Source: Pseudoflavonifractor sp. An44 (GTDB taxonomy: Bacteria; Bacillota; Clostridia; Oscillospirales; Oscillospiraceae). From it: a DNA stretch of 64,000 bases. The stretch spans positions 124,001-188,000 of the forward strand of contig NZ_NFIH01000002.1 in NCBI RefSeq assembly GCF_002161675.1, read 5' to 3'. The notes beneath the pieces were generated by a model, which ran no database searches, had not been told where the DNA came from, and was given only the letters and a program-made list of their open reading frames with translations. Both the position numbers and the translations under genes were made by a program. This document shows, piece by piece, positions 7,910 through 41,580 of this stretch; within the stretch, counting starts at the first letter, position 1, and the number at the start of each line of letters is the position of its first letter.

Positions 7910-7910
7910 T

Positions 7911-9880: not shown

Positions 9881-9896
9881 GCCCCTGCGCTCCTCT

Positions 9897-9942
9897 CCTG
9901 GTTATGGAACCATTCTACCACAGAGGATGTCCCATAACCAGG
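9897..9942 (-). promoter_or_regulatory. Perfect 11-bp inverted repeat around the polymerase promoter
   Basis: CCTGGTTATGG (9897-9907) and CCATAACCAGG (9932-9942) are exact reverse complements 24 bases apart. Between them, on the minus strand, lies a TAGAAT that could be the -10 box for the polymerase operon. The repeat could be an operator. It has no U-tract, so it is a poor terminator for the permease gene ending at 9955. Confidence 0.5.
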
Positions 9943-9954
9943 ACTTTCATCCTC

Positions 9955-12900: not shown

Positions 12901-13173
12901 CTGCACTTGGCTGTAGTCTCCCAGCTGGAAAAACGCCACCCGGGCCGATTCATCGGCGGCATATTGGTCGGGGTAATTCTCTCCCTTGTACTCCACCAAG
13001 GCGATGGAGGTGTAGGTAGCGTCCATGGCTGCCAGCGTCTGAGTGCAATAGCTCCATAGCCCCAGTCCCAGGGACAGGGAGAGGGTGAGAAGGAAAATCA
13101 AAAGGGTGAAGAGAACGGTGCGACCACGAGAGCGCACAGTGCTGAGAATTCCATTGCGAAGAATCATAAACAC
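9955..13173 (-). CDS. FtsX-type ABC transporter permease, paralog B
   Basis: A protein of 1,072 residues. There is an N-terminal membrane segment (about 18-40), a very long extracytoplasmic region of ~460 residues, three membrane segments around 505-600, and a fourth near 660. A second extracytoplasmic region (~690-960) and a C-terminal FtsX bundle complete it. It is the duplicated-fold layout of macrolide/peptide exporter or lipoprotein-related permeases of the MacB class in Firmicutes. It lies 38 bases after its paralog and uses the same ATPase. The last ~130 residues are almost identical to paralog A, whereas the extracytoplasmic parts have drifted. Substrate unknown. Confidence 0.85.
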   Translation of the reverse strand: MFMILRNGILSTVRSRGRTVLFTLLIFLLTLSLSLGLGLWSYCTQTLAAMDATYTSIALVEYKGENYPDQYAADESARVAFFQLGDYSQVQGVELWESTQRGMVLTDGYQRPDGTIPYEDKMVVSVFQLSEVFAFQECPAQLEDLPEEYLIYSDDRCTVHIREGVWEDVPYYSSAPLETSAAYVTEQMNGTVTLIDKDRGLSMELNWLKNQGGFFRRDSYIETDPQTGKLTSIDTLVNFRLALDHYSGIIGENLYSYDGKSGVLVEVYPGDSGFMAEPGKRYLIHGERMDSGASNQGIVVRAFYEGCDQSPWVSFDSYDDPIFTDSLFSTYAKQYERGNNYIQVEASDNIPALEPFQQGTLYLKEGRYPQEGEKGVCAVTQDIAQQLELNLGDELSVSVMQSTQTDPFALEETGDSRTWTVVGIVNQGKGYEGHLWVSRQDALPEAPLFGYLFGRAVLDNAGAVEAVEQMTAMAPDGVEITLYDQGYATAAQPLQAMEATAQGVTFAALVGALAVLCLFAFLFVGRQQQAVDVMVSLGTPKRKIWLWLLSGVTVVAGVAVLAGMVVSAVSMQLLIGLALQGARALYAADQRYSNGALGTTKEAELPQQVPLWPAWVSAVIVFLLALVLCALFTQLAQRKNTLRRGKSQVRVPRSGTSITGKGAVRFAWLSARRGGWRSMAVPGVALVLSAFLGFLMATAQGWDQQRATLYENTTITGQFTSVNGRQYTGLMLEDPWQLWDSGLLSSMLVYDSTHYWMPDEMPDFPNTAFGNKLRGEWVSKQPELVFLNGLEVSPRFIYRQVPTITWLEGWDESFLEAPSYYNTPQSTPLPCIASQTWMEEQGISLGDDIKINSQKGGTITVFPVGSCASEGTDKTIYVPLSRLCLPPWQAESPQQSAAPWDYFPGCRFTLQSSYNLEDFREYLAQEGYSVPGDLNGSRIVVVLNDYAFTQTVEALGRYITLSQILFPVLFLLMGVMGFVVSWLMVNGRRMEFAIMRGLGASQTRVFGSFFLEQMGLCLMGCILSGVVLTLWSGQPLVWLASIGFALFYLAGCALAVRTVGKTKIFALLTHAD

Positions 13174-13211
13174 ACACCCTTTCCCTCAAGTGTGGGGGGA
13201 ATTCGATTCCA

Positions 13212-16200
13212 TCAATCTGCATGGGTAAGGAGGGTAAAGATTTTGGTCCGTCCCACGGTACGTACGGCCAGAGCACATCCCGCCAAATAAAAGAGAGCAA
13301 AGCCAGCGGAAGCCAGCCAGACCAGGGGCTGCCCGCTCCAAAGGGTCAGGACCACTCCGCTGAGGATGCATCCCATCAGGCACAGTCCCATCTGTTCCAG
13401 GAAGAAGGAGCCAAACACCCGCTTTTTGGAGGCACCCAGCCCTCGCATGATGGCAAACTCCATGCGCCGACCATTGACCATGAGCCAGGACACCACAAAG
13501 CCCATAACTCCCATGAGGAGGAAGAGCACAGGGAAGAGAATTTGACTCAGGGTGATGTAGCGTCCCAGAGCCTCCACGGTCTGGGTAAAGGTGGAGTCGT
13601 TGAGCATGACTACGATGCGATTGCCGTTTAAATCCCCTGGGACAGAATATTCTTCCTGGGCCAGATACTCCCGGAAATCATCCAAATCATAGGCGGATTT
13701 CAGGGTGAAACGGCAACCCAGATAATCGGCGATGTCAGTTTGCAAGCAACTCAGTGGCGCGTAGAGGTTGTCAGCAGCTCCCCACGGAGTAAAAGAACCC
13801 ACGATGCACACGGGAATATCGCCTGCCAGTTCCGTATAGACGGAAATTTGGTCGCCCAACTCCACCCCCTTCTCTTTCATCCAGCGTGTGCTGGAAACAC
13901 AGGGGGTGATGCCCTCCATGCCACTGGTGTAGTTGTTGGGCTCTGTCAGGAATCCCTCGTCCCAGCCCTCTAGCCATGTGATTTCCGGGCTTTTCTCGCT
14001 GTAAATAAAGTCTGGCGCAACTGCGAAGCCGTTGAGGAATACCATGTCTTCCTGCTTTTCAATCCACCCGGCCCTGCGGTCCTGGCCATGTACATTGTCT
14101 GCGAATTGTGGCATGTCCTTGCTCAGCCAGTAGTGGTAGCTGCGATAGACCTGAATGTCAGACACCATACCGGATTCGCTGATCTGGAACGGATCGGATA
14201 GATGCAAATCTGTATACTGCCTTCCATTGGCAGAGGTAAATTGACCTGTGATGGTGGTGTTATCATAGAGACTCCGGCGCTGGCTCTCCCAGCCCTGAGC
14301 AGTCACCATCAAAAATCCCAAAAATCCAGACAAGACCAGCGCCACCACGGGAACGACCACAGAGCGCCAACCGCCTCGGCGGGCAGAGAGCCAGGCAAAG
14401 CGCACAGCACCCTTCCCTGCGACACTGGTGCCGCTGCGGGGAACACGTACCCGGGTTTTACCCTGGCGAAGTGTGTTTTTCCGCTGCGCCTGGCCCACAA
14501 AGGCCACGCACAGGATCAGAGCGGCCACAAACACCACCACGCCTGCCACCAAGGCAGGCCAAAGAGGCACTTGTTGGGGCAGCTCTACCTCTTTCGTGGC
14601 GCCCAGAGCCCCGTTGCTATACCGCCGATCGGCGGCATACAGGGCACGAGCCCCTTGCAAGGCCAGAGCAATGAGCAGCTGCATGGAGGCGGCGGATACC
14701 GCCATCCCTACCAGTACAGCTACCCCTGCCACCAGGGTCACGCCGGAGAGGAGCCACAGCCGAATCTTACCCCTGGGCGTGCCCAGGGAGACCATCACGT
14801 CCACCGCCTGCTGCTGTCGCCCCACAAAGAGGAATGCAAACAGGCACAAGACAGCCAACACACCCACCAGGGAGGCAAACGTGACGCCCTGAGCCGTGGA
14901 CTCCATGGCCTGTAGGGGCTGGGCAGCGGCTGCATAGCCCTGGTCATACAGGGTAATGCGCACCCCATCCGGAGCCATGGCTTCCATCTGGTCCACCGCC
15001 TCAACCGCACGGTTGTTGTCTAAAACGGCCCGGCCCAACAGATAGCCAAACAGGGGTGCTTGAGGTAGATCCTCTCCCCTGGAAACCCAGATGCGCCCCT
15101 CGTAGCCGCTGGCCTGGTTCACAATCCCAACCACGGTCCAGCTTCGAGTGTCGTCCGTTTCTCCCAAGGCAAAGGGGTCGTATTCGGTAGACTGCATCAT
15201 GGACAGAGAGATGGTGTCCCCCACCTTCAAATTCAGCTGTTTGGCAATGTCCTGGGTTATGGCGCATACGCCGCTCTCCCCCGCTTTGGGATATCGCCCA
15301 TCGGTGAGATACAAGGTTCCTTGTTGGAAGGGCTCCAGAGCGGCGATGTAATCGCTGGATTCCACTTGCATGTAGTTGTTGCCCAACTCATATTTTTGGG
15401 CGTACTCTGTAAAGATGCTGTCAGTGAATACTGGGTCATCATAGTTGTCAAAGGCCACCCAGGGAGACTGGTCACAGCCCTCGTAGAACTCCGTCACCCG
15501 AATGGCACGGCTGGAACTGCCGCTGTCGTACAGTTCTCCGTGGAGGAGGTAACGCTTTCCGGGCTCGGGTACAAAGCCACTGTCCCCGGGGTCAATTTCC
15601 ACCAGAACACCACTCTTCCCCTCATAGGAGTAGAGATTTTTCCCGATGATGCCTGTATACCCTGCCGGAGCCTGTCGATATCCCAAGAAATATTCTTCCC
15701 AATAGCTCTCACCTGTGGCAGGGTCTGTCTCATAGGACTCTCCACGATCGAAGACGTTCCCTGCCTCCTCCATCCAGCTCAAATCCAATGTGATGTCGCG
15801 GGTCTCGTCTATTAGAGTGAGTCTAGGGCTGGCAACCACTCGGACATCCTCTTTTCTGCTGGAGAGCAGGGAATAATACTGAATATCTTCCCACATGCCC
15901 TCCTTGGTTTTTACAGTGCAGGTGGGGCCTTCCCGAATCATATACTCCTCCGGGAGGTCTTCCAGCTCAATGGTGAAGGACTCTTGAACGTACTTCTGGG
16001 TGATCTGGAACACAGCCAAAACCACCTGGTTCTCATAGGGAATGGTGCCGTCCGGACGCTGATATCCCTCGGACAGGGCGACGCCCCAATCGGTGGTCTC
16101 CCACAGCGTTACCCCGGGCACCTGGCTATAGTCCCCCAACTGCGCCAGGGACTGGCGGGCGGTATCGTCCGCTGCATAGGGGTCGGGATAGTTCTCTCCC

Positions 16201-24789: not shown

Positions 24790-24857
24790 GAAAGCCACAA
24801 AATAAACCACAGCATCATTACCTCATGAGTTGTTCGAGGAATTGGGAGGCATATACC

Positions 24858-26840
24858 TTGAATCACACCGAATATCTCAACGATGCCATCGCCCGTTTCA
24901 GCGCCGGAACCAGCCACGACGCCTATCGATTTATGGGCTGTCACAAGGAGGTCCGGGACGGAAAGGAGGGCTATGTGTTCCGTGTCTGGGCCCCTCATGC
25001 CCGCTCTGTCCGGGTTTTGGGCCGATTTAATGACTGGGACACCGATGTGCCGGCCATGGACAAGCTCACCGATGGAATTTGGGAGCAGTTTTTGCCCGAG
25101 GCCAAACACTTTGACGAGTACAAATTCTACATCGAACGCCCGGATGGCTCCTTTGTCTTCAAGAGCGATCCCTACGGCGTACATACCTGCACTCGGCCCG
25201 AAACTGCCAGCAAGATCTATGATCTGGACGGCTTTGAGTGGACCGATCAGGAGTATTGTGCTGCCCGGGCCAAGGAGCAGCCGCTCACCCGTCCTCTGAA
25301 CATCTATGAACTGCACCTGGGGTCCTGGCGTAAGCATGCCGATGGCAACTACATGACCTACGAGGAATACGCCAAGGATTTGGTCAAGTATGTCAAGGAT
25401 ATGGGCTATACCCACATCGAGCTGCTTCCCATCAGCGAGTATCCCTTTGAGCCCTCCTGGGGCTATCAGGTCACTGGGTACTATGCCCCCACCTCCCGGT
25501 ACGGCACACCCAAGGACTTTATGAAGTTTGTGGATATCTGCCACAGTGCAGGTATTGGCGTGATTTTAGACTGGGTGGGCGCACACTTCCCCAAGGATGA
25601 GACGGGCCTGTATGAGTTCGACGGCGGTTGCTGTTACGAGCCCTCCGACCCTCTGCGCAAGGAGCACCCGGACTGGGGCACCCACATTTTCGATTATGGC
25701 CGTTACGAGGTGCGGTCCTTCCTCATCTCCAATGTGGTCTACTGGTTAGACATGTACCATGTGGACGGCATTCGAGTGGACGCCGTGGCTTCCATGCTCT
25801 ATCTGGACTACGGACGCCGGGATGGTCAGTGGCGCCCCAACCAGTACGGCGGCAATACCAATCTGGACGCGGTGAAGTTCTTACAGGACATGAGCGCCGC
25901 TGCCTTCGAATTTAACCCCGGCGCTCTGGTCATCGCCGAGGAGTCCACCGCCTTCCCCATGGTCACCAAGCCTGGGTATGACGGCGGATTGGGCTTTAAC
26001 TTCAAGTGGAATATGGGCTGGATGCATGACATGCTGGATTACATGTCTACCGACCCCCTGTTCCGCAAGGGCCGTCACAACAACATTACCTTCTCTCTGA
26101 CCTATGCGTTCTCGGAAAACTTTATCCTCCCCCTCTCTCATGACGAGGTGGTACACGGTAAGTGCTCCCTGCTCAACAAGATGCCGGGAGACTATGAGGA
26201 GAAGTTCCAGAATCTCCGGGCCTTCTACGGCTATATGATGACCCATCCCGGCAAAAAGCTGGTGTTCATGGGCGGAGAGTTCGGTCAGTTTATTGAATGG
26301 GATTTCACCAAGGAACTGGACTGGTTCCTTTTGGAATATGATAAGCACCGTCAGCTGCAAGACTATGTCCGGGATTTGAATCACTTCTACCTGGCCCATC
26401 CTGCCCTGTGGCAGAATGACAACGATTGGCACGGCTTCCAGTGGATTGCCTGTGACGACAACAGCCAGAGCGTGATCTCCTTCCGGCGCGTGGATGCCAA
26501 GGGGAAAGAGGTTGTGGTTGTGTGCAACTTCTGCCCGGTCACCCGCGAGCACTACTGCATCGGTGCGGCCAAAGCCGGTACTTATATTCCTGTTTTGTCC
26601 AGCGACGACGTGAAATATGGTGGCACTGGTACCCCGCTTAAGCCGGTCAAGGCTAAGGCGAAACCCATGCACGGGCTGAAATACTCCATCGAATTGACTC
26701 TGCCGCCCCTCTCCACCGTATATTACGAACGAGAGGCGCCCCAGAGAACCCGCAAGACGGTGGAAGGCGTGCCCAGCGCAAAGGTGAAAAAAACCAGAGT
26801 TTCCAAAAAGCAATCCGCTGGCAAAAAGGCCAGCAAATAA
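24858..26840 (+). CDS. glgB: 1,4-alpha-glucan branching enzyme
   Basis: A protein of 660 residues. It adds alpha-1,6 branches to the growing glycogen chain. An N-terminal CBM48-type domain (about 20-120, YVFRVWAPHARSVRVLG) is followed by the GH13 barrel. The barrel has GIRVDAVASMLYLDY (nucleophile Asp), LVIAEESTAFP (acid/base Glu) and LSHDEVVHGK (transition-state Asp). A basic KKTRVSKKQSAGKKASK tail ends the protein and is not part of the usual enzyme. I choose TTG 24858 because GGGAGG is eight bases upstream; an ATG at 24825 has no site. It is the first gene of the glg cluster. Confidence 0.95.
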   Translation: MNHTEYLNDAIARFSAGTSHDAYRFMGCHKEVRDGKEGYVFRVWAPHARSVRVLGRFNDWDTDVPAMDKLTDGIWEQFLPEAKHFDEYKFYIERPDGSFVFKSDPYGVHTCTRPETASKIYDLDGFEWTDQEYCAARAKEQPLTRPLNIYELHLGSWRKHADGNYMTYEEYAKDLVKYVKDMGYTHIELLPISEYPFEPSWGYQVTGYYAPTSRYGTPKDFMKFVDICHSAGIGVILDWVGAHFPKDETGLYEFDGGCCYEPSDPLRKEHPDWGTHIFDYGRYEVRSFLISNVVYWLDMYHVDGIRVDAVASMLYLDYGRRDGQWRPNQYGGNTNLDAVKFLQDMSAAAFEFNPGALVIAEESTAFPMVTKPGYDGGLGFNFKWNMGWMHDMLDYMSTDPLFRKGRHNNITFSLTYAFSENFILPLSHDEVVHGKCSLLNKMPGDYEEKFQNLRAFYGYMMTHPGKKLVFMGGEFGQFIEWDFTKELDWFLLEYDKHRQLQDYVRDLNHFYLAHPALWQNDNDWHGFQWIACDDNSQSVISFRRVDAKGKEVVVVCNFCPVTREHYCIGAAKAGTYIPVLSSDDVKYGGTGTPLKPVKAKAKPMHGLKYSIELTLPPLSTVYYEREAPQRTRKTVEGVPSAKVKKTRVSKKQSAGKKASK

Positions 26841-26887
26841 CCATCGCATATAACCAGCGAGGAAAGATGAATTAGGGGGGCTTCACT

Positions 26888-28078
26888 GTGATCGAACGAA
26901 AAAAAGAATGCATCTCCATGCTCTTGGCCGGCGGCCAGGGCAGTAGATTGTATGTACTGACAGAAAACACCGCAAAACCCGCCGTGCCTTTCGGCGGCAA
27001 GTATCGCATCATTGACTTCTCTCTCTCCAACTGCGTGAACTCCGGCATTGATACCGTGGGTATTCTCACCCAGTATCAGCCCCTGGAGCTCAACGACTAC
27101 ATTGGCAACGGCCAGCCTTGGGACCTGAACCGGAATTTCGGCGGCGCCCATGTGCTTCCTCCCTATACTAAGACCACCAGCAACCAGTGGTATAAGGGCA
27201 CGGCCAACGCCATCTATCAGAATATCCCTTTCATCGAGAGATATCAGCCCGAATACGTGCTTATTCTCTCCGGTGACCACATCTATAAGATGGATTACAA
27301 CAAGATGTTGCAGTTCCACAAGGAGAAGGGCTCCGAGTGCACCATTGCAGTCATCAACGTCAGCATGGAAGACGCCACTCGTATGGGCATCATGAGCACC
27401 GACGAGAACCAGGCCATCGTGGACTTCGAGGAGAAGCCCGCCCACCCCAAGAGCACCCAGGCCTCCATGGGTGTGTACATCTTCACTTGGGCCGCTCTGA
27501 AGAAGTACCTGATCGCCGACGAGGCCGACCCCAACTCCGAAAACGACTTCGGCAAGAACGTCATCCCCGCCTTCCTGCGGGACGGCCGTCCCATGTATGC
27601 CTATCCCTTTGAAGGCTACTGGAAGGACGTGGGCACTCTGGGCAGTCTGTGGGATGCCAACATGGACCTGTTGGACCCCAAGGACCCCCTGGATATGCGC
27701 AACCCCCACTCCAAGATCTATGCCCGGAACTATGCCAGCCCCTCTACCATGATCGCCCCCTCCTCCAAGGTGTCCAACTCCTTTATCACCGAGGGCTGCC
27801 GCATCAAGGGTACGGTGGAGAACTCCGTGATCTATACCGGCTGCGAGGTGGAAGAAGGCGCTGTGGTCAGCGGCACCGTCCTGATGCCCAACACCATCGT
27901 CCGTAAGGGCAGCACCGTCAGCTACGCCATCGTGGGTGAGCAGTGTGTCATCGAAGAGAATGTCACCATCGGCGCACGCCCGGAGGACTGCCTGGGCGAG
28001 GATTGGGGTATCAGCGTTGTGGGTCATAAGAAGACCATCCCCTCTGGCACCGTGATCAAACCCAAGGAAATTGTTTAA
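26888..28078 (+). CDS. glgC: Glucose-1-phosphate adenylyltransferase
   Basis: A protein of 396 residues with the GTG start. It makes ADP-glucose from glucose-1-phosphate and ATP. The nucleotide loop is [24 protein letters not shown], seen from about residue 15. The sugar-phosphate-binding lysine region is in DFEEKPAHP, and a left-handed beta-helix forms the C-terminus ([12 protein letters not shown] to the end). The catalytic-site residues appear intact, unlike the GlgD partner. GGGGGG-type Shine-Dalgarno lies upstream. It forms the usual Firmicute GlgC-GlgD heteromer. Confidence 0.96.
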
Positions 28079-28092
28079 GGGGGGCTACAAAG

Positions 28093-29211
28093 ATGAAAAT
28101 GTGTGGAATTATTTTCTCCGAGATGTATTCGGATGAGTTGAACGCTTTTACCCATGACCGTAACATGGCGGCTATCCCCTACGGCGGCCGTTACCGCCTG
28201 GTGGACTTCGCCCTGTCCAACATGGTCAACTCCGGCATCACCAGCGTGGGCGTGCTGGCCAAGCAGCACTACCACTCTCTGATGACCCACCTGGGCAATA
28301 CCCAGGAGTGGGACCTGAACCGCAAGAACGGCGGCCTGCAGATCCTCCCCCCCTACGCCAGCGAGAGCCTGAACCAGGCCAACCGCGGCAAGTTGGACGA
28401 GCTGCGTAACGCTCTGGACTTCCTCCGGGAGGACACCTCTCCCTATGTGGTGATGGCAGATGCCCACGTGATCTGCAACATGGACTTCCGCCCCGTGGTG
28501 GAGTCCCACATCAACAGCGGCTGTGACATCACTGTGGTTGCCACCCAGAGCAAGATGAGCAACAGCAACACCTACAAGTCCGTCATCCAGGTGGATGGGA
28601 ACATGCGGGTCACCAGCTACGCTCTGGACCACGTGCCCCAGCCCGGCGACTACTGTGGCATGAGCATCATGGTCATGGACCGTCAGGTGCTCATTGACAC
28701 CGTGTCTGAGTTCACCGCCCGGGGTGTCTACTTCCTGGAGCGTGACTTCATTCAGTCCCGCTTCAACACCGGGGACCTGTCCATCAACATCTACCCCTTC
28801 ACCGATCCCGTCCTGCGGGTCAACGACATCGAGAGCTATTTCAGCAGCAATATGGCTCTGCTGGACGAGGGCATCAGCAACGCCCTGTTCCGTCCTGACC
28901 GTCCCATCTACACCCGTGTCAACGACGAGGTGCCCTCTCACTACGGCATGGACTGCAACATCTCCGGCTGTATCATCGCCGACGGCTGCATTCTGGATGG
29001 CAATGCGGAGCACTCCGTCATTGGCCGTGGCGTACGCATCGCCAAGGGTGCCACAGTGAAGAACTGCATCATCATGCAGGGCAGTGTCATCGGCGAGGGC
29101 GCCAGCCTGGAGAACGTCATCGTGGACAAGTGGGCCACCATCACCGCCGGTAGCCAGCTCAAAGGCCTGGAGACTGCTCCCGTGATCATCCGCAAAGGAG
29201 TCACTGTATGA
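28093..29211 (+). CDS. glgD: GlgD subunit of ADP-glucose synthesis
   Basis: A protein of 372 residues, homologous to GlgC but beginning MKMCGIIFSEMY without the glycine-rich AGGxGxRL loop, so it is regulatory rather than catalytic. It keeps the YGGRYRLVDFALSNMVNSGI sugar-nucleotide fold and the beta-helix C-terminus. GlgD proteins raise the activity of GlgC in Firmicutes. It lies 14 bases after glgC and its stop overlaps the glgA start by 4 bp. Confidence 0.95.
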   Translation: MKMCGIIFSEMYSDELNAFTHDRNMAAIPYGGRYRLVDFALSNMVNSGITSVGVLAKQHYHSLMTHLGNTQEWDLNRKNGGLQILPPYASESLNQANRGKLDELRNALDFLREDTSPYVVMADAHVICNMDFRPVVESHINSGCDITVVATQSKMSNSNTYKSVIQVDGNMRVTSYALDHVPQPGDYCGMSIMVMDRQVLIDTVSEFTARGVYFLERDFIQSRFNTGDLSINIYPFTDPVLRVNDIESYFSSNMALLDEGISNALFRPDRPIYTRVNDEVPSHYGMDCNISGCIIADGCILDGNAEHSVIGRGVRIAKGATVKNCIIMQGSVIGEGASLENVIVDKWATITAGSQLKGLETAPVIIRKGVTV

Positions 29212-30638
29212 AAATCTTATTTGCCGCCAGTGAAGCTGCTCCCTTTTTAAAAACGGGAGGGCTGGGCGACGTGGCATCTGCGCTGCCCAAAGCGCTCAGT
29301 GCCGACGAAAACGCACAGGTGGCTGTCTTTCTCCCCTACTACAAGGCCATCAAAGACAGTCCCCGGTGGGACATTGAGTTTCTCTGTAACTTCCGGGTGC
29401 CTCTGTCCTGGCGCAGCGTGTACTGCGGTGTGTTCCGTGCCAAGGACACCCAGAGAAACCTGCAGTACTACTTCATCGACAATGAGTACTACTTCTACCG
29501 GGACAACGCCTACGGCTACTACGACGACGGCGAGCGCTTCGCCTTCTTCTCCAAGGCCGTTTTGGAGTCCCTGCAATACCTCAACTGGTATCCCGATGTC
29601 ATCCACGCCAACGACTGGCAAACTGCCATGATTCCCGTCTTCCTCCGGGCTTTCTATATGGGCTTGGATGCCTACCAGCCTATCCGTACCCTGTTTACCA
29701 TCCATAACATGGAGTATCAGGGCAAAGCACCGGAGTCCTTTGTGGACGAAGTGCTGGGTCTGCCGGAGGATTGGCGGGGTACCACCCAGTTTGACGGCTG
29801 CACCAACATGATGAAGGCCGCCATTCTGGTGTCTGACCGGGTGAGCACTGTCTCCCGCACCTACGCCTACGAGATTCAGGACCCCTATTACGCCCACGGG
29901 CTGGATGGGGTACTGCGCCACCACAGCTATAAGCTCAGCGGCGTGGTCAACGGCATCGACACCGATGTCTTTGACCCCTCCACCGATCCCCTGATCCCGG
30001 TGAATTACACCTGTGACCAGTTGGACAAGAAGGCGGAGAACAAGCGGGCGCTCCAGGAAAAGCTGGGATTGGAGTGCCGGGACGACGTGCCCATGGTGAT
30101 TATGATCACCCGCCTGGTCTCCCACAAGGGCCTGGACCTGGTGCAGGCCGTCATGGATGACCTGATGCAGGAGGATATCCAGCTGGTCATCATCGGCACA
30201 GGCGAGCAGAATTATGAGGATATGTTCCGCTCCTATGCCGACCAGTACCCGGAAAAGATGTCTGCTAACATCGTTTTCGACAACAAATTGGCTCACGAGA
30301 CGTACGCCGGCGGCGATCTGGTGCTGATGCCCTCCAAAATGGAGCCCTGTGGCCTGACGCAGCTCATCGCCATGCGCTACGGCACCGTACCCATCATCCG
30401 GGAAACCGGCGGATTGTACGATACCGTACCCGCTTTGAACCCGGAGACCATGGAAGGGCGCGGCTTTACCTTCAAAAGTTACAACGCCCATGACATGCTG
30501 GATGCTGTCCGGCGCGCTGCTGCTTTCTATCAGGACAGCAAGCACTGGAAGCTCCTGCAAAAAAATGACATGAAATTTGATAGTTCTTGGAATCAGTCCG
30601 TCCAGGAGTATTGGCAAATCTATCGTTCCATGTTATAA
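29208..30638 (+). CDS. glgA: Glycogen synthase (GT5)
   Basis: A protein of 476 residues. It transfers glucose from ADP-glucose onto glycogen. The N-terminal KTGGLGDVASALPKAL binds the ADP-glucose; IHNMEYQG and VVNGID are further GT5 hallmarks. The C-terminal Rossmann domain has MITRLVSHKGLDL, the MPSKMEPCGLTQLIAMRYG acid motif and RETGGLYDTV. It is translationally coupled to glgD (ATGA). Its last codons overlap a promoter and are followed by a long hairpin. Confidence 0.97.
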   Translation: MKILFAASEAAPFLKTGGLGDVASALPKALSADENAQVAVFLPYYKAIKDSPRWDIEFLCNFRVPLSWRSVYCGVFRAKDTQRNLQYYFIDNEYYFYRDNAYGYYDDGERFAFFSKAVLESLQYLNWYPDVIHANDWQTAMIPVFLRAFYMGLDAYQPIRTLFTIHNMEYQGKAPESFVDEVLGLPEDWRGTTQFDGCTNMMKAAILVSDRVSTVSRTYAYEIQDPYYAHGLDGVLRHHSYKLSGVVNGIDTDVFDPSTDPLIPVNYTCDQLDKKAENKRALQEKLGLECRDDVPMVIMITRLVSHKGLDLVQAVMDDLMQEDIQLVIIGTGEQNYEDMFRSYADQYPEKMSANIVFDNKLAHETYAGGDLVLMPSKMEPCGLTQLIAMRYGTVPIIRETGGLYDTVPALNPETMEGRGFTFKSYNAHDMLDAVRRAAAFYQDSKHWKLLQKNDMKFDSSWNQSVQEYWQIYRSML

Positions 30639-30639
30639 T
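30611..30639 (+). promoter_or_regulatory. Internal promoter for glgP
   Basis: TTGGCA (30611-30616), a 17-base spacer and TATAAT (30634-30639) sit within the final codons and stop of glgA. The predicted start (~30646) falls at the foot of the hairpin 30643-30708. Confidence 0.65.
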
Positions 30640-30642
30640 TGT

Positions 30643-30708
30643 ACCGTGTTGCCTCCCCCCGATTACAGCCCGCTCATGCGGGCTGTGCTCGGGTACGGGC
30701 AACACGGT
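30643..30708 (+). promoter_or_regulatory. Long nested hairpin between glgA and glgP
   Basis: Outer arms ACCGTGTTGCC (30643-30653) and GGCAACACGGT (30698-30708) are exact complements. Inside them lies ACAGCCCGC/GCGGGCTGT. TTTTC follows. It may end the glgA transcript while the internal promoter restarts at glgP, or it may be a leader structure for glgP. Confidence 0.7.
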
Positions 30709-30758
30709 TTTCAAATTTTTGCGGATGCCTTGTGATCCGCACAGAGGAGTTCAGTTTC

Positions 30759-33164
30759 ATGAATCAGAAACAGATTATTGAAAAACTGGAAGAGACCTTG
30801 TTACGACGCTATGGCTGTCATTCTGACACCGCCTCTCCCCAACAGATCTACCGCTGTCTCTGCTACCTCGTCAATGAGATGCTGGTGGAAAAGAACACAC
30901 AGTTTAACCGCAAGACCAACAAGGACCAGGACAAGCAGGTATACTACATGTCCATGGAGTTCCTGGTTGGTACTTCCCTGCGGAATAATTTGTATAATTT
31001 AGGTCTGGAAGAGCTGTTCACCCAGGCACTGGATAAGTGCGGCATCGACATCCATGACCTGTATGAGATGGAGCCTGATGCCGGTTTGGGCAACGGCGGT
31101 CTGGGACGTCTGGCCTCCTGCTATATGGATTCTGCCACCACTCTGGGCATTCCCTGCACGGGCTATTCCATTCGCTATGAGTTCGGTATCTTCAAGCAGA
31201 AGATCATCGACGGCTGGCAGATGGAGTTCCCCGATGACTGGCTGACCATGGGCGATGTGTGGCTGGTGCCCCGAGAGGACGAGGCCGTGGAGGTCAAGTT
31301 CGGCGGCGAAGCCCACGGCTGGGACGACAACGGCAAGTACCGTGTGGCCCACGTCAACTATCAGTCCGTCATGGCTGTGCCCAACGACATGTATATTTCC
31401 GGCCACGACACCGACGCCGTGAACAAGCTGGTGCTGTGGAGCGCCAAGTCTCCCCGCAGCTTTGATATGACCGCTTTCTCCCGGGGCGACTACGCCAAGG
31501 CTCTGGAGGGCGACACCATGGCCGAGGTCATCTCCAAGGTCCTCTACCCTGCCGATGATCACATCGCTGGCAAGCGGCTGCGCCTGCGCCAGCAGTATCT
31601 GCTGGTATCTGCCTCCCTCCAGACCATTTTGCGCAAGCACCTGAAGACCTATCGCAGTCTGGATAATCTGGCTGACAAGGTGTCCATCCACATCAACGAC
31701 ACCCACCCTGCTCTGTGCGTGCCCGAGCTGATGCGTCTGCTGCTGGACGAGTACGACTACGGCTGGGATGAGGCCTGGGAGATCACCTGCAACACCCTGT
31801 CCTACACCAACCACACCGTTATGAGTGAGGCTCTGGAGCGTTGGAGCGAGAGCCTCTTCTCCGAGCAGATGCCCCGTGTGTATCAAATTGTGTGCGAGAT
31901 CAACCGCCGCCTGGTGGAGGATCTGCGGGCCAAGTATGGCAACGACATGGGTAAGATCAACTACATGGCTGTCATCGCCAACGGCGAGATTCGCATGGCC
32001 AACCTGTGTCTGGCCGCCTGCCACAAGATCAACGGCGTGTCCAAGCTGCACACTGAGATTCTCAAGAACAGCATCTTCCGGGACTATTACCAGATGGAGC
32101 CCAACCGCTTCCTCAACGTCACCAACGGCATCGCCTACCGCCGCTGGCTGTGCCAGTCCAACCCCGACCTCAGCGCTCTGCTCAAAGAGCTCATTGGCGA
32201 CGGGTTTGTCAAGGACTCCAGAGAGTTGGAGAAGCTGCTGAAGTACCAGGACGATGCCAGCGTGCTCAGCCGCCTGCAGGAGATCAAGCTGGCCAATAAG
32301 CAGCGCCTCAGCGATTTGATTCTCCAGCGCAACGGCATCCAGGTGGACCCCAATTCCCTGTTTGACGTCCAGATCAAGCGTCTGCACGAGTACAAGCGCC
32401 AGTTGCTCAACGTCCTCCAGATTCTGCACATGTATCTGGAGATCAAGCACAACCCCAACGCCCCCTTCCAGCCCCGCACCTTCATCTTTGCCGCCAAGGC
32501 CTCCGCTGGATACATCATGGCAAAGCAGATCATTCAGCTCATCTGCGCGGTGTCCCGCCTGGTCAACTCCGACCCCGTGGTGCGCGACAAGCTGAAAGTG
32601 GTGTTTATGGAGGACTACAACGTCTCTCTGGCTGAGAAGATCATCCCTGCCGCCGAAATCTCCGAGCAGATTTCCATTGCCGGCAAGGAGGCCAGCGGCA
32701 CCGGTAACATGAAGCTAATGATTAACGGCGCCGTTACCTTGGGTACACTGGATGGGGCCAATGTGGAGATTCGGGAGCAGGTGGGCGATGAGAATATCGT
32801 GCTCTTCGGTCTGCGTACCCCCGAGGTCAACGACCTGTGGCATCACGGGTACAATCCCCTCGTATATATTCATAACGATCCCCAGCTCCAGGCTGTGATG
32901 GATCTGCTGCGCACCGGTTTCTCCAACATGCGCTTTGACGATATCGTCAATTCCCTGATTACCAACCACCGTGGACCTGCCGACCCCTATATGTGCCTGG
33001 CAGACTTCCACGACTACGTGCGGGCTCAGAATGATGTGTCCGCCCTGTATGCTGACCAGCGCAAGTTTACCAACATGTCCCTGGTCAACATCGCCAAGGC
33101 CGGTCTGTTCTCTGCCGACCGCGCCGTCACCGAATATGCCGAGAACATCTGGCATCTGAAGTGA
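30759..33164 (+). CDS. glgP: Glycogen/maltodextrin phosphorylase
   Basis: A protein of 801 residues. It releases glucose-1-phosphate from chain ends using phosphate and PLP. The PLP-lysine segment is EASGTGNMKLMINGAVTLGT. The GLGNGGLGRLASCY loop and NDTHPALCVPELMRLL are also present. ATG 30759 follows AGAGGAG; the frame is open further upstream through the hairpin but without a start. Its glucose-1-phosphate can re-enter GlgC or, after a mutase not encoded here, glycolysis. Confidence 0.96.
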   Translation: MNQKQIIEKLEETLLRRYGCHSDTASPQQIYRCLCYLVNEMLVEKNTQFNRKTNKDQDKQVYYMSMEFLVGTSLRNNLYNLGLEELFTQALDKCGIDIHDLYEMEPDAGLGNGGLGRLASCYMDSATTLGIPCTGYSIRYEFGIFKQKIIDGWQMEFPDDWLTMGDVWLVPREDEAVEVKFGGEAHGWDDNGKYRVAHVNYQSVMAVPNDMYISGHDTDAVNKLVLWSAKSPRSFDMTAFSRGDYAKALEGDTMAEVISKVLYPADDHIAGKRLRLRQQYLLVSASLQTILRKHLKTYRSLDNLADKVSIHINDTHPALCVPELMRLLLDEYDYGWDEAWEITCNTLSYTNHTVMSEALERWSESLFSEQMPRVYQIVCEINRRLVEDLRAKYGNDMGKINYMAVIANGEIRMANLCLAACHKINGVSKLHTEILKNSIFRDYYQMEPNRFLNVTNGIAYRRWLCQSNPDLSALLKELIGDGFVKDSRELEKLLKYQDDASVLSRLQEIKLANKQRLSDLILQRNGIQVDPNSLFDVQIKRLHEYKRQLLNVLQILHMYLEIKHNPNAPFQPRTFIFAAKASAGYIMAKQIIQLICAVSRLVNSDPVVRDKLKVVFMEDYNVSLAEKIIPAAEISEQISIAGKEASGTGNMKLMINGAVTLGTLDGANVEIREQVGDENIVLFGLRTPEVNDLWHHGYNPLVYIHNDPQLQAVMDLLRTGFSNMRFDDIVNSLITNHRGPADPYMCLADFHDYVRAQNDVSALYADQRKFTNMSLVNIAKAGLFSADRAVTEYAENIWHLK

Positions 33165-33197
33165 CCTATTTTTCCTCATTGTCTGGAGTTTTGATGG

Positions 33198-35033
33198 ATG
33201 AATGTCGCGTTTAATTGTCTGTTAGAAGAATATAAGACTCCTTTTGGCTGTGTGATGGAAAACCAGCCCTGTTCCCTGACGGTGAAGGTACCGGACTACT
33301 ACGCCGTCAGCGGCGTGGATGTGATTCTCACCACCGACACCGCCTACGGGATGCAGGTATCCTTCGAGTTGACCGACACGCAGGACGGATATCAAATTTA
33401 TAAAACGCAGTTTTCCCTCCCCCGGTGCGGACTGTATTTCTATCACTTCCGCTGCCAGGGTGCTCAGGGGCCGTTCCAGGTCTACCGTTGCGGAGAGACG
33501 GATACCAGCATCAACCAGGGAGACCTCTGGCAGTTGACCTGTTACCCGCGGCAGTTTCACACGCCCAAGGCCTATGCCGGAGCCGTGATGTATCAGATCT
33601 TTCCCGATCGCTTTTTTCGCTCGGGCTCCTGTGATTTGACCGAGAAACTGCAGCCCTACTGGGTACACGAAAACTGGAACGACACCCCCCATTATCTCCC
33701 CAACGAGCACGGAGAGGTACTGAACAACGATTTCTTCGGCGGAAATCTGCGGGGAATTCGGGAAAAGCTGCCCTATCTCAAACGGATGCATGTGGACGTC
33801 ATCTATCTCAACCCCATCTCCATGGCGTTTTCCAATCACCGCTATGACACTGCCGACTACATGCGTCCCGACCCCATGTTGGGGACCGAGGAGGACTTTT
33901 CCGCCCTGTGTGCCGACGCCCACAAGCTGGGTATGAAGGTGATTTTGGACGGCGTGTTCTCCCACACCGGCAGCAACAGCGTGTACTTTGACCGCAACCA
34001 TATCTTCGGACACGGTGCAGTCAGTGACCCCAATTCCCCCTACCGCAGTTGGTTTGATTTCCAGGAGTACCCCAACCGCTACACCTCCTGGTGGGGCATC
34101 GACACCCTCCCCTGCGTCAATGAGATGGACCCGGCTTTTCTGGAGCACATCATCACAGGAGAGAATAGCGTCATTGCCCACTGGATGAGCTTGGGCGCCG
34201 ATGGCTTCCGTCTGGACGTGGCCGACGAGCTGCCCGACGACTTCATCGCCCTGTTCCGCCAGCGCCTCAAGGAGCTGAACCCTGAGGCGCTGCTGCTGGG
34301 CGAGGTGTGGGAGGATGCCTCCAACAAGATCAGCTACGGAGCCCGAAGAAAGTATTTCTCCCACGGAGAACTGGACTCGGTGATGAACTATCCCTTCCGC
34401 AGTGCCATTCTCTCCTTCTTGGTCCAGCCGGATGCCAACAGCTTCCGGGCCAACATCATGTCGGTGGTGGAGCACTATCCCCAGGAGGTTCTCCACTGCC
34501 TCATGAACAGCCTGTCTACCCACGACACCCCCCGCATCCTCACCCTGTTGGGCGACAGCTTTGACGGCTCCAAGCAGGAAAAGGCCAACCGATTCCTCAG
34601 CGAGGATGCCAAACTCTGGGCAGTGCGGCGGGAGTGCGCAGCGGCAGCGCTTCAGTTCACGCTGCCCGGCATGCCCTGTATCTACTACGGAGATGAGGCA
34701 GGGTTGGAAGGGTTTGAAGACCCCTTTAACCGCCGGTGCTTCCCCTGGGGGCGTGAGCTAACCTCTCTACAGACGGCCTATGAGTCTCTCAGCCGCATCA
34801 AAGGCAGATATGCCGCCCTCAAACGGGGCCATATCACCTTTGAAAACCCCAACGATCATGTCATTCATTTCATCCGCACCTTGAACGGACAGCGGATTCA
34901 CACCTTTGTCAACGGAGGCTCCGACCCCATGACCCTCCCCATCACGGGACAGCTGCTGTTCCAGTCCTATATCAATATGGAAAAGCGGTTGCTGCATCTG
35001 GAGCCCTGGGGTGTTGCCATTATTTTGGAATAA
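33198..35033 (+). CDS. GH13 alpha-amylase/neopullulanase-type enzyme
   Basis: A protein of 611 residues without a signal peptide, so cytoplasmic. An N-terminal beta-sandwich (about 15-115) precedes the barrel, which starts at AVMYQIFPDRFFRSG. Catalytic residues are seen in GFRLDVADE (nucleophile), LLGEVWEDA (acid/base) and STHDTPR (transition-state Asp). The N-terminal domain and motif set fit neopullulanase or cyclomaltodextrinase types, which cut alpha-1,4 and some alpha-1,6 bonds. Next to glgP and a glucokinase it probably clears the branched limit dextrin left by phosphorolysis. Confidence 0.88.
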   Translation: MNVAFNCLLEEYKTPFGCVMENQPCSLTVKVPDYYAVSGVDVILTTDTAYGMQVSFELTDTQDGYQIYKTQFSLPRCGLYFYHFRCQGAQGPFQVYRCGETDTSINQGDLWQLTCYPRQFHTPKAYAGAVMYQIFPDRFFRSGSCDLTEKLQPYWVHENWNDTPHYLPNEHGEVLNNDFFGGNLRGIREKLPYLKRMHVDVIYLNPISMAFSNHRYDTADYMRPDPMLGTEEDFSALCADAHKLGMKVILDGVFSHTGSNSVYFDRNHIFGHGAVSDPNSPYRSWFDFQEYPNRYTSWWGIDTLPCVNEMDPAFLEHIITGENSVIAHWMSLGADGFRLDVADELPDDFIALFRQRLKELNPEALLLGEVWEDASNKISYGARRKYFSHGELDSVMNYPFRSAILSFLVQPDANSFRANIMSVVEHYPQEVLHCLMNSLSTHDTPRILTLLGDSFDGSKQEKANRFLSEDAKLWAVRRECAAAALQFTLPGMPCIYYGDEAGLEGFEDPFNRRCFPWGRELTSLQTAYESLSRIKGRYAALKRGHITFENPNDHVIHFIRTLNGQRIHTFVNGGSDPMTLPITGQLLFQSYINMEKRLLHLEPWGVAIILE

Positions 35034-38367: not shown

Positions 38368-40508
38368 AAGATTACAGCTACACCCAAAACCGAGAACTGA
38401 GCTGGCTGCGGTTTAATCGCCGCGTGTTGGAAGAGGCAGCGGATCAGACCGTGCCGCTGTTGGAGCGCCTGAAATTCATCTCCATCTTCACCAGCAACCT
38501 GGATGAATTCTTTATGATTCGAGTGGGCAGTCTCTTCGACCTGGCTGCCATTTCCAACAACAAAGAGCGGGATAACAAAAGCGGCATGTCTCCCCGGGAG
38601 CAGCTGCGTTGTGTCTACGAGACCATTCCTCCCCTCATCGACCTAAAAAACCATCTCTACGAGTCCCTCTGCACTCAGCTAGAAGAAGAGGGCATCGTGG
38701 ATGTTTCCATGGACCAGCTGACAGAGGCGGAACAGCAGTACGTCTCCCGGTATTACACCGCCAACGTACTTCCCACCCTCTCTCCCCAGATTGTGGACTC
38801 CCACCACCCCTTCCCCCACCTGGAAACAAAGCGGCTTTACATTTCTCTGCTGTTACGGGAGAAAAAAGATCGACTTTCCCTGGGATTTGTCCCCCTCCCT
38901 GCCTCCCTGCCCGCTTTTCTCATGCTGCCCAATTCCAATGGCCGCTATCTCCGTATGGAGCAGATGCTCCTCCACTGGGCGCCCTCCCTCTTTGAGCGAT
39001 ACAAGGTGGCAGACAGCTGTGTCATCTGTGTCACCCGCAATGCAGATATCAGCTTTGACGTAGATAAGTTTGAGGACACCACCGAAGAGGACTTCCGGAA
39101 CCATGTCAGCAAGCTGCTCCACCTTCGAGGTAAACAGTCTGCGGTGCGCCTAGAGGTCTCTCGGCCCATTTCTCAGGCCTTTCTGGACATTTTACGGGAC
39201 AGATTGGACCTGGAAGCGCACCAGGTGTTTGTGGACCGCTCTCCGTTGAATATGAGCTATGTCTTTGCCCTGATTGGTCAGCTGCCTGCTGATGTCAGTG
39301 AGAAACTCCTCTTTCCTCCCTATCAGCCTCGCCAACCGGAGGATTTGAACCCCAAGCAGAGCATGATTCAACAGATTCAGCAGCGAGACCGACTCCTGTT
39401 CTATCCCTTTGACTCCGTCAACCCCTTCCTGCAATTGCTTCAAGAGGCCGCCGAGCGCAAGGATGTCATCGCCATTAAAATGACTATCTACCGTCTGGCC
39501 TCTTCTTCCAAGATTGCCCGTATTCTCTGTCGAGCGGCGGAAAATGGGAAAGAAGTCACCGTACTCATGGAGCTGCGAGCCCGTTTTGACGAGGCCAACA
39601 ACATCGCCTGGTCCAAAGTGCTGGAAGAAGCCGGATGCCGGGTCATCTACGGTGTCGAAGATTATAAGTGTCACAGCAAGATCTGCCAGATTACCATGCG
39701 CCGGGGCGATACCCTCAACTATATCACTCAGATCGGCACAGGAAACTACAACGAAAAGACCTGTGCTATGTACACGGATCTGTGCTTTATGACTGCTGAT
39801 AAGCAGATTGGCCTGGACGGTGCCGCTTTCTTCCGCAATATGCTGGTGAGCAATCTCAGCGGCAGCTATCAGCGCCTTCTGGTCTCCCCCAACGGTATTC
39901 ACCAGGCTCTCTTAGACCACATGGATGAACAGATTATCTTGGGACATCAGGGATATATCTGCATCAAAGCCAATTCCCTCACAGAACGGGCCATTATCAA
40001 CAAGCTTCAGCAAGCCAGCCAAGCAGGCGTAGAGGTACAGCTGATTCTCCGGGGCATCTGTTGTATTCGGCCCGGAATTCCCGGAAAAACCGAGAGCCTC
40101 CACGTTACTAGCATTGTGGGCCGCTATCTGGAGCACGCCCGCATCTACTGCTTTGGTCGGGGAGAACAGGCCAAGTATTTCATCTCTTCGGCGGACTTGA
40201 TGACCCGAAATCTGTTGCGCCGAGTTGAGATCGCCTGTCCTATCGACGACCCACAGGTAAAATCCCAGCTGGAATGGATTCTCCGCACCCAGTTGCTGGA
40301 CAATGTAAAGGCCAGTTCCATGCTCAGCGACGGAAGCTATCTGAGAAAAACCAGTACCGTCTCTCCTCTCAACAGTCAAGAGGAGTTTATGCGTACCTCT
40401 TCCCACACGGCACAACCTAGCTCCGCACCTGCCAAGTCCAAACCTCAGGGTTCCCTGCTCCAGCGGCTGAAAGATCGCTTCCCCTGGACGATTACAAGAA
40501 AGTATTGA
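38340..40508 (+). CDS. ppk: Polyphosphate kinase 1
   Basis: A protein of 722 residues. It builds polyphosphate from ATP. It starts with the PPK N-domain (NRELSWLRFNRRVLEEA, ~15-31). The phosphorylated His is in DYKCHSKICQI (~443), the second catalytic His in YLEHARIYCFGRG (~599), with ARFDEANNIAWSKVLEEAG and GTGNYNEKTCAMYTD between. ATG 38340 has GGAGGG six bases upstream. A serine-rich tail of about 60 residues follows the core. Its stop codon overlaps the -35 box of the tRNA-Leu promoter. Confidence 0.96.
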   Translation: MPEDTVKTMKDYSYTQNRELSWLRFNRRVLEEAADQTVPLLERLKFISIFTSNLDEFFMIRVGSLFDLAAISNNKERDNKSGMSPREQLRCVYETIPPLIDLKNHLYESLCTQLEEEGIVDVSMDQLTEAEQQYVSRYYTANVLPTLSPQIVDSHHPFPHLETKRLYISLLLREKKDRLSLGFVPLPASLPAFLMLPNSNGRYLRMEQMLLHWAPSLFERYKVADSCVICVTRNADISFDVDKFEDTTEEDFRNHVSKLLHLRGKQSAVRLEVSRPISQAFLDILRDRLDLEAHQVFVDRSPLNMSYVFALIGQLPADVSEKLLFPPYQPRQPEDLNPKQSMIQQIQQRDRLLFYPFDSVNPFLQLLQEAAERKDVIAIKMTIYRLASSSKIARILCRAAENGKEVTVLMELRARFDEANNIAWSKVLEEAGCRVIYGVEDYKCHSKICQITMRRGDTLNYITQIGTGNYNEKTCAMYTDLCFMTADKQIGLDGAAFFRNMLVSNLSGSYQRLLVSPNGIHQALLDHMDEQIILGHQGYICIKANSLTERAIINKLQQASQAGVEVQLILRGICCIRPGIPGKTESLHVTSIVGRYLEHARIYCFGRGEQAKYFISSADLMTRNLLRRVEIACPIDDPQVKSQLEWILRTQLLDNVKASSMLSDGSYLRKTSTVSPLNSQEEFMRTSSHTAQPSSAPAKSKPQGSLLQRLKDRFPWTITRKY

Positions 40509-40533
40509 AATTTTCCCAATTCTGTGGTATACT
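40505..40533 (+). promoter_or_regulatory. Sigma-A promoter upstream of the tRNA-Leu fragments
   Basis: TTGAAA (40505-40510), 17-base spacer, TATACT (40528-40533). It fires about 20 bases before the first decayed tRNA-Leu half, whereas the intact tRNA lies nearly 1 kb further on. Confidence 0.72.
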
Positions 40534-40559
40534 CCATACCCGTAGTCATAATGAGATAT

Positions 40560-40620
40560 GCGGGTATGATGGAATTGGTAGACATGCGAGATTTAGGTGC
40601 TGTCACCTCAGTGAAGAAGT
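40560..40620 (+). pseudogene. Decayed tRNA-Leu 5' half, copy A
   Basis: Bases 40560-40598 match the first 39 bases of the intact tRNA-Leu(TAG) with six differences, all transitions. The match ends at GATTTAGGT in the anticodon loop. It is followed by GCTGTCACCTCAGTGAAGAA, which is also found after copy B. There is no T-arm or acceptor 3' strand. The sequence GGTGCTGTCACC at the junction forms a small hairpin. Confidence 0.78.
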
Positions 40621-40631
40621 TTTTGTAAAAA

Positions 40632-40654
40632 TAGCGGCAGGGAGTTCCTGCTGC
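40632..40654 (+). repeat. Hairpin preceding tRNA-Leu copy B
   Basis: AGCGGCAGG-GAGTT-CCTGCTGCT, followed by CATATATGCGGGTATG. A sister hairpin at 41464-41488 sits in the same position before the intact tRNA. Confidence 0.7.
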
Positions 40655-40662
40655 TCATATAT

Positions 40663-40723
40663 GCGGGTATGACGGAATTGGCAGACGTGCAGGATTTAGG
40701 TGCTGTCACCTCAGTGAAGAAAG
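40663..40723 (+). pseudogene. Decayed tRNA-Leu 5' half, copy B
   Basis: Bases 40663-40701 match the intact tRNA-Leu 5' half with one difference, end at the same anticodon-loop point as copy A, and continue into the same 20-base tail before diverging. It is younger than copy A by sequence. It lies just ahead of the zinc-finger protein gene. Confidence 0.8.
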
Positions 40724-40735
40724 TGCAGGTGTGGT

Positions 40736-41398
40736 ATGGAAAGTCAGATGACAAAAGGGCATTGCTATCTCTGTGGCGCAATCGTTGCAAAATCGGGTTT
40801 TTTGAAGCATTTTTCCTCCAGACATTCTGGCGGGGAGGAAGCGGAGAACCAGAAATGTGTCCTCCTTAAGGTGGAGGACGCCGAGGATAAGGTGTATTGG
40901 CTGTACCTCGATATGCCGCTGACCTCTACGCTTAAAACGCTGGATACTTTTTTGCGGGAGATCTGGCTTGAGTGCTGTGGGCATATGAGCGCATTTTATC
41001 AACGCGGCGGGGTGGAGATAGGGAAGAGCACAAAGCTGGATCGCATTCCGACCGGTTCCGTTCTCTTTTACGAGTATGATTTCGGCAGTACGACAGAGCT
41101 TCGGATTACGTTTCTGCATCCTGTGTCCCGTCCCAAACAGCGCAAGGCTGTCCGTTTGCTGGCTCGGAATCTGCCTTTGCTTTTCGAGTGCGGACAGTGC
41201 GGCGAGGCGGCGGATTACGTCTGCTGTGAATGTGACGCGATGGAGGAGTACCCGTTTTTCTGCGAGAAATGTATGGCGTCCCACGAGCACGAAGGATGCG
41301 CACTGCCCGTGGTCAATTCCCCAAGAATGGGCGTATGCGCGTACTGCGGGGAATACGATGTATACGAGTATTCGGACGGTACCGAAAAAGAAGGGTGA
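40736..41398 (+). CDS. pRiA4b ORF-3-like protein with zinc-binding motifs
   Basis: A protein of 220 residues. An N-terminal C2H2-like motif is CYLCGAIVAKSGFLKHFSSRH (shown in part: CYLCGA...HFSSRH). The middle matches the pRiA4b ORF-3 fold: LDTFLREIWLECCGHMSAF and FYEYDFGSTTELRI. The C-terminus has several CxxC pairs (CGQCGEA, CCECDA, CEKCMASH, CAYCGEY), like a B-box or zinc ribbon. The family is common on plasmids and mobile elements; its function is unknown. Codon use differs from the flanking genes (many GCG, CGG, TTT codons). It sits between tRNA-Leu fragments, so it was probably imported. ATG 40748 is an alternative start. Confidence 0.75.
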   Translation: MESQMTKGHCYLCGAIVAKSGFLKHFSSRHSGGEEAENQKCVLLKVEDAEDKVYWLYLDMPLTSTLKTLDTFLREIWLECCGHMSAFYQRGGVEIGKSTKLDRIPTGSVLFYEYDFGSTTELRITFLHPVSRPKQRKAVRLLARNLPLLFECGQCGEAADYVCCECDAMEEYPFFCEKCMASHEHEGCALPVVNSPRMGVCAYCGEYDVYEYSDGTEKEG

Positions 41399-41463
41399 AA
41401 GAGCAGCGCAAGCAGGATGTGCTGTCTGCATCTATCCTTCTCAAGCAAAAACGAGATATCAAA

Positions 41464-41488
41464 AGCGACAGGAAAAACTCCTGTCGCT
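41464..41488 (+). repeat. Hairpin preceding intact tRNA-Leu
   Basis: AGCGACAGG-AAAAACT-CCTGTCGCT followed by CATATAAGCGGGTATG. Same stem pattern (AGCGRCAGG/CCTGYCGCT) and the same CATATA link as the hairpin at 40632. It may terminate the gene upstream or mark a cassette end. Confidence 0.7.
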
Positions 41489-41495
41489 CATATAA

Positions 41496-41580
41496 GCGGG
41501 TATGGCGGAATTGGCAGACGTGCAGGATTTAGGTTCCTGTGCCGAAAGGCGTGTGGGTTCGACCCCCACTACCCGTACCA
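41496..41580 (+). tRNA. tRNA-Leu, anticodon TAG
   Basis: An 85-base cloverleaf with encoded CCA. The acceptor is GCGGGTA/TACCCGT (one G-U), the anticodon arm CAGGA-TTTAGGT-TCCTG (anticodon TAG), with a variable arm and the T-arm GTGGG-TTCGACC-CCCAC. It borders the conjugative element, and tRNA genes are common ICE attachment sites. Two decayed 5' halves lie upstream. Confidence 0.96.

Follow-up and report, generated by a model that had tools for sequence, protein, structure and literature searches.

In the available text of a 2014 survey, serine integrases are not known to target transfer RNA (tRNA) genes, and the serine integrative mobilizable elements (IMEs) of Firmicutes are placed, in the accessible portions of two papers on them, in dispensable protein genes, in genes of integrative and conjugative elements (ICEs) and at intergenic sites (rumA, traG, snf2, maff2) (PMC5704250, PMC5357655). 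A 2026 integrase resource, as far as its available text goes, gives counts of bacterial attachment sites (attB) in tRNA genes that are not broken down by integrase family, and may hold such cases (PMC12884075), and the accessible part of another paper names serine-type mycobacterial prophages, whose sites may likewise bear on tRNA targeting (PMC3986857). Here we describe a tRNA-Leu(UAG) locus of Pseudoflavonifractor sp. An44 within a window of 64,000 nucleotides (contig NZ_NFIH01000002.1, positions 124,001 to 188,000 of the forward strand), in which two tRNA 5′ halves, each fused to the same 20-base tail, precede an intact tRNA gene. We consider it highly likely, at a probability of about 0.85, that this locus is the scar of two nested insertions by tRNA-swapping IMEs, whose recombinases, to judge from the available text of the sources above, are apparently of a type not known to target tRNA genes. 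A literature search of limited coverage gave no description that we recognized of this system, of serine recombinases at a tRNA gene, or of a substitute tRNA that stays a target.

The tRNA-Leu locus and its empty sites

The features of the locus, annotated under this reading and numbered by position in the window, are the following.

40505–40533 (+): sigma70-like promoter of the native tRNA-Leu, with TTGAAA at 40505–40510, a 17-bp spacer and TATACT at 40528–40533, assigned by eye
40560–40598 (+): copy A, 5′ half of the native tRNA-Leu and left part of the left attachment site (attL) of element 1; 39/39 match to three empty sites
40599–40618 (+): tail 1, left end of element 1 (right arm of the element's own attachment site, attP); identical to tail 2
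40633–40660 (+): hairpin and CATAT leader before the element 1 tRNA, from sequence
40663–40701 (+): copy B, 5′ half of the tRNA-Leu belonging to element 1 and left part of the element 2 attL
40702–40721 (+): tail 2, left end of element 2
40736–41398 (+): left-end cargo gene of element 2, encoding a Cys-rich protein of 220 amino acids
41464–41494 (+): hairpin and CATATA leader before the element 2 tRNA, from sequence
41496–41580 (+): intact tRNA-Leu(UAG) brought by element 2, identified by ARAGORN; its type differs from the native tRNA of three relatives
41565–41580 (+): 16 bases present in both the element tRNA and the native 3′ half, with the right junction in this stretch or to its right

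The sequence-only reading had proposed serial insertion of small cassettes at the anticodon loop, and the parts that it listed were recovered: a promoter-like pair of motifs, the intact tRNA-Leu, a passenger open reading frame (ORF), and spacings of 103 bases from copy A to copy B and 833 bases from copy B to the intact tRNA. Behind the anticodon loop (GATTTAGGT) both halves give way to one shared tail, with 40599–40618 and 40702–40721 identical, and a hairpin followed by CATAT or CATATA precedes both copy B and the intact gene. Copy B equals the intact tRNA at 38 of 39 bases, in keeping with the single change claimed for it, and copy A equals it at 33 of 39.

A search of the genus for tRNA-Leu(UAG) gave matches in 37 of 42 genomes. 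In three relatives (G006, G018 and G001), an upstream flank related to that of the window (~300 bp, 78–90%) and a promoter precede one single intact tRNA-Leu, and from the tRNA onward the alignment to the window runs over 906, 468 and 212 bp at 96, 92 and 88%, respectively. Judged by sequence, these are the empty sites of the locus in other species of the genus, and such clean sites bear out the proposed serial insertion at the anticodon loop. Copy A had been described as decayed, with six changes. The six differences among 39 bases stand but the decay does not: the intact tRNA of the empty sites begins with the same 39 bases (39/39), and copy A is native.

The 3′ halves tell the complementary part of the story. 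They read TCTCGTGAAGC.. with GAGTCCC in the three relatives and TCCTGTGCCGAA.. with GACCCCC in the window, where the native 3′ half (TCTCGTGAAGCG...) is absent and another stands in its place. This difference indicates that the whole tRNA has been exchanged; where the sequence-only reading had each insertion bring only a fresh 5′ half, a complete new tRNA with both halves appears to have arrived. The left junction lies exactly behind GATTTAGGT, and the right junction lies within or after the shared 41565–41580, as placed by the flank that is common to the window and the three relatives from TGTTATCC onward. When the window genome (G000) was searched for the displaced native 3′ half with the G006 query, the only hits beyond the three locus copies were weak ones (E 6e-4), on C30 and C23.

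Attachment sites and the pairing of separated halves

The sequence-only reading had pointed to a search for the tail elsewhere, and the tail does recur, and not by chance. A 27-base pattern of half end plus tail (≤3 mismatches) matched 7 of 149 genomes, and a looser half-plus-tail pattern matched 29 of 400 genomes of the family, in 17 of 106 genera, with the window genome counted each time and 0 matches for the reversed controls. The exact 23-mer occurs in 22 stretches of contigs from metagenome-assembled genomes (MAGs), 13 of them labeled Oscillospiraceae. Among loci fetched from other genomes, with G366 (a family pattern match with two mismatches) left out, 29 of 29 carry a tail-bearing half, with up to six per array; L019, L026 and L034 duplicate G003, G328 and G030 and were dropped. 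An intact tRNA-Leu(tag) is present in 27 of these 29 loci; in the other two, 27 and 114 bases of sequence are available from the start of the last half onward. The units between halves measure 89 bp to 1.7 kb and hold varied genes or none, three false halves having been removed (the L016 pair, one L075 pair and one L085 split), and a Pfam scan of ten cargo proteins gave a domain above cutoff in one of them (FRG). The half with its tail gave 0 matches in two scans of viral_contigs, on which ground a phage origin was rejected, and a known RNA family was rejected after Rfam at gathering scores found only tRNAs in seven array loci.

A search of 31 genomes with the tail alone revealed a second class of site, in which the inverted tail is joined to a lone tRNA-Leu 3′ half, as at a right attachment site (attR). 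Of 400 family genomes, 16 contain the attR pattern (inverted arm plus core), against 0 for the reversed control, and every one of the 16 matches continues into a tRNA-Leu 3′ half, 13 clearly and 3 in degenerate form as judged by eye. In inverted orientation, tail 1 of the window matches the arm found at attR in other elements. The idea that the tail is a coding leader or an RNA hairpin had been considered by eye only and was dropped after attR was found. On the same contig, attR lies 18.8 kb (G328), 19.5 kb (G029), 26 kb (G216) and 31.8 kb (G401) from the array.

The separated halves fit together. ARAGORN recognizes a tRNA-Leu(tag) in 4/4 elements when the first 5′ half is fused to the distant 3′ half, and in none of the four from attL alone or attR alone. 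On all six contigs with both ends (G226 and G342 added), the displaced 3′ half pairs with the first 5′ half at 7/7 acceptor and 5/5 anticodon positions. Against the 3′ halves of other contigs, pairing is perfect in 6 of 30 combinations, which all fall between three genomes with the same tRNA type, and a hand count finds 6 of 720 permutations as good as the observed pairing. The first half and the 3′ half of the final intact tRNA pair perfectly in only one of the six contigs; on the imperfect pairing in the other five, together with the replaced native 3′ half in the window, insertion of a 5′ half alone was dropped. attL and attR derive from one attB, as in an integrative mobilizable element. 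The four elements read with both ends span 19–32 kb, with the displaced 3′ half at the far end, so that the short cassettes of the sequence-only reading are best read as left ends and not as free-standing units; short units without a recombinase may still move freely (G226).

Across 82 distinct attL sites, loop positions 32–34 differ from TTT in 2, 2 and 0 cases and positions 35–38 differ from AGGT in 4, 4, 2 and 3 cases, and at attR sites the first core base is variable. This would place strand exchange near TTT, though only as a hint, because the search patterns favor the consensus. Three attL halves (L079, L082, L086) have TTTCGGT instead of TTTAGGT at the anticodon loop. In L017, L018, L072 and L080, the tail is similar by eye to the 3′ half found in one type of tRNA-Leu (TTACCTCAGTGGTG versus TCACCTCAGTGAAG), as if the attP arm mimicked the tRNA variable arm.

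Element bodies, leaders and probable scars

The elements in G328 and G029 encode two large serine recombinases side by side, both of which contain PF00239, PF07508 and PF13408 (the Pfam domain classes Resolvase, Recombinase and Zn-ribbon). The pair was also found by homology in G216, in G401 and in G342 (between the last attL and attR, 16 kb apart). A MobA/VirD2 relaxase (PF03432) is present in the G328 element, and relaxase homologues at E≤1e-10 occur in L071, L075, L080 and L085; the relaxase evidence does not extend to G029. As for the genes expected of an IME, then, G328, G029, G216 and G401 have their own recombinases and G328 a relaxase, and recombinases are absent from the window scar. 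Pfam scans of eight G328 and eight G029 proteins (one G328 protein cut C-terminally) found no tyrosine recombinase, the other ORFs and the G216 and G401 elements lying outside the scan. Other body genes encode AAA and sigma-like proteins and defense-like cargo, the latter comprising type I restriction genes in G029 and a DUF4011/AAA/REase protein in G328. The complete tRNA of each of the four elements read sits between attL and the recombinases and hence belongs to the element. G029 and G030 have in common the half, tail, leader and tRNA (480 bp, 96%) and the recombinase stretch (5.2 kb, 95%); most of the 5.7 kb in between differs, as do the left flanks.

A 6.4-kb attL–tRNA-Leu–attR unit with vanR-, vanS-, vanG-, vanXY- and vanT-like genes was observed in L082 (G226:C1:1046000-1062000) at 7040–13456. 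No recombinase is found among its listed ORFs, and its single-contig genome has no relative of the recombinase LSR1 at E≤1e-100.

In many units a conserved leader of ~97–130 bp lies between the tail and the tRNA and comprises a terminator-like hairpin plus two further stems. From 27 array units, among them L085 7458–7620, L018, L023, L025, L035 and L036, 25 distinct leaders were collected, of which 18 aligned as one family with 22 consensus pairs, 4 of them with a compensatory change.

The association of arrays with recombinases was followed in 24 distinct loci whose sequence extends 5 kb or more beyond the last half. Eight contain the recombinase pair in the stretch examined and two more have it on the same contig (10/24 in total). 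Remnants of element genes survive in three others. G170 retains an end of LSR1 immediately after the tRNA, G348 has AAA and sigma genes, and L024 contains a recombinase fragment that, at only 43–47% identity, may be unrelated. From their gene remnants, G170 and G348 look like intermediate states of body loss. LSR1 was found at 58–60% identity in 4 of 42 genomes of the genus, namely G008, G029 and G030, whose arrays lie on the contig that carries it, and G023, a fragmented MAG that gave no match to the tRNA pattern; at E≤1e-100 it occurs in 7 of 37 further genomes with attL or attR.

The 220-residue cargo protein of the window has no Pfam match and one NCBIfam match far under cutoff (18.3 of 109 bits), giving no clear family. 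Window 40628–41519 aligns with sequence from Candidatus Caccousia avicola (L033) over 894 bp at 94% identity. In L033 itself, at 1640–2520, a tRNA half is seemingly cut in the D-arm and followed by an extra ORF inside one unit, which suggests a further rearrangement. Beyond the tRNA, the window at 41836–64000 holds genes that by eye, from their translations, resemble those of conjugative elements, the first ~0.9 kb of which also follows the intact tRNA in G006. A row of glycogen/starch genes, named in the same way (branching enzyme, glgC/glgD-like, synthase, phosphorylase), occupies 24825–35033.

Proposed mechanism, alternatives and known systems

We infer that the two large serine recombinases encoded on the element join an element circle, with an attP of two inverted arms (TTCACTRAGGTGACATCACC-TTT(A)-GGTGCTGTCACCTCAGTGAA), to the anticodon loop of tRNA-Leu(UAG). 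Joining would create attL, with the 5′ half and the tail, and attR, with the inverted tail and the displaced 3′ half. The split tRNA would be replaced by the complete tRNA-Leu on the element, situated ~0.05–1.7 kb inside attL and presumably served by the host tRNA promoter, with a cargo gene between attL and the substitute in some elements. A later element would split the substitute in turn, so that an array would be a pile of attL sites. In the window both bodies would have been lost, most simply by one recombination between the newest tRNA 3′ end and the displaced native 3′ half. Of this scheme, the attL and attR sites, the fit of the separated halves, the tRNA inside the element, the two recombinase genes and the empty sites can be read directly from sequence.

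Several observations weigh against this reading. The ARAGORN test separates right from wrong combinations only in G401, since in G328 and G216 a tRNA is also recognized when the displaced 3′ half is combined with the later 5′ halves. Two nested attR sites were not seen on any one contig, G216 and G342 having several attL sites and one attR match each. The window genome has no attR match, so that the window itself never shows an intact element, and it has no LSR1 match either; the empty sites, moreover, do not come from sister strains. Eleven of the 24 loci, the window included, are without a recombinase or element gene in the stretch examined, and for ten of these a search of the whole genome with LSR1 gave no match at the thresholds used; many of the genomes surveyed are fragmented MAGs. 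The terminator-like hairpin in one leader family also speaks against plain read-through, with which it fits poorly.

An integron-like array, in which short tail–cargo–tRNA cassettes are the mobile units and a recombinase supplied in trans inserts them, would account for arrays of as many as six tail-bearing halves separated by varied genes or by none, for an attL pattern that is found in more genomes than the attR pattern (29 versus 16 of 400), and for the G226 unit. We nevertheless regard it as quite unlikely. Short units exist, yet the four units read with both ends are the 19–32-kb elements with their own recombinases, partly decayed bodies are found in G170 and G348, and a clean small insertion would have kept the native 3′ half that the window is missing; an integron integrase was not searched for. 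To a simple tandem tRNA duplication followed by decay, which the sequence-only reading had itself named as the outcome that would undo it, we give almost no credence. Repeated halves with similar leaders are what it would leave behind, but three relatives have single-copy sites in which the copy A sequence is intact, the same tail occurs in 17 of 106 genera sampled, and attR sites carry matching 3′ halves; it was rejected on the empty sites and attR.

A long inverted-repeat (palindromic) attP is a trait of large serine recombinases, and the attP proposed here has that form. This, the recurrence of the serine pair across elements and the lack of a tyrosine recombinase among the 16 scanned proteins of G328 and G029 make it very improbable that a tyrosine integrase produces the insertions and the serine recombinases are passengers, even if the anticodon loop, in the available text on such islands, is a classical tyrosine-integrase site (PMC4383910). 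Unlike in tyrosine-integrase islands, a complete tRNA is carried inside the element and the split halves stay apart.

If the scar of nested IMEs is the correct reading, it would be an instance in which serine recombinases target a tRNA gene and mobile DNA repeatedly swaps a host tRNA for a different version. It would also supply candidate attP/attB pairs in a conserved site, explain odd tRNA-half arrays in gut bacteria and allow a test of whether mobile elements drive host tRNA variation. An extension that we offer as speculative and, on balance, doubtful is a self-renewing tRNA-swap platform, in which serine recombinases target a tRNA gene, the substitute becomes the next landing site and recombinase-less units such as the 6.4-kb one in G226 are moved in trans; tRNA-Leu(UAG) loci of gut Oscillospiraceae would then act as an integron-like collector of cargo expressed from the host tRNA promoter.

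As far as the available text of the cited papers goes, the elements share with serine IMEs a serine recombinase, a relaxase, site-specific insertion within a gene and a short shared core, and differ from them in the tRNA gene target, the whole substitute tRNA on board and the adjacent recombinase pair (PMC5704250, PMC5357655). Several serine integrases per element with the same Pfam domains are likewise found in streptococcal ICEs, although these carry triplets, insert in hsdM, mutT and traG, and have no tRNA target described for the triplets in the accessible text (PMC4701971). Like islands of the anticodon sublocation in Islander, the elements split a tRNA gene at the anticodon loop and leave a displaced fragment to mark the far end; those islands, as described there, use tyrosine integrases and complete the split gene with an island-borne tRNA fragment (PMC4383910). 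Replacement of a whole tRNA has a precedent in the vTRX32-1-like phages of Rhizobium, in which, in the portion of the paper available, a carried tRNA-Leu is presumed to replace the interrupted one, but the carried tRNA lacks the integration motif and the authors suggest that super-integration is thereby prevented (PMC8631192). In the elements described here, unlike in those phages, the substitute tRNA keeps the site and gets split again.

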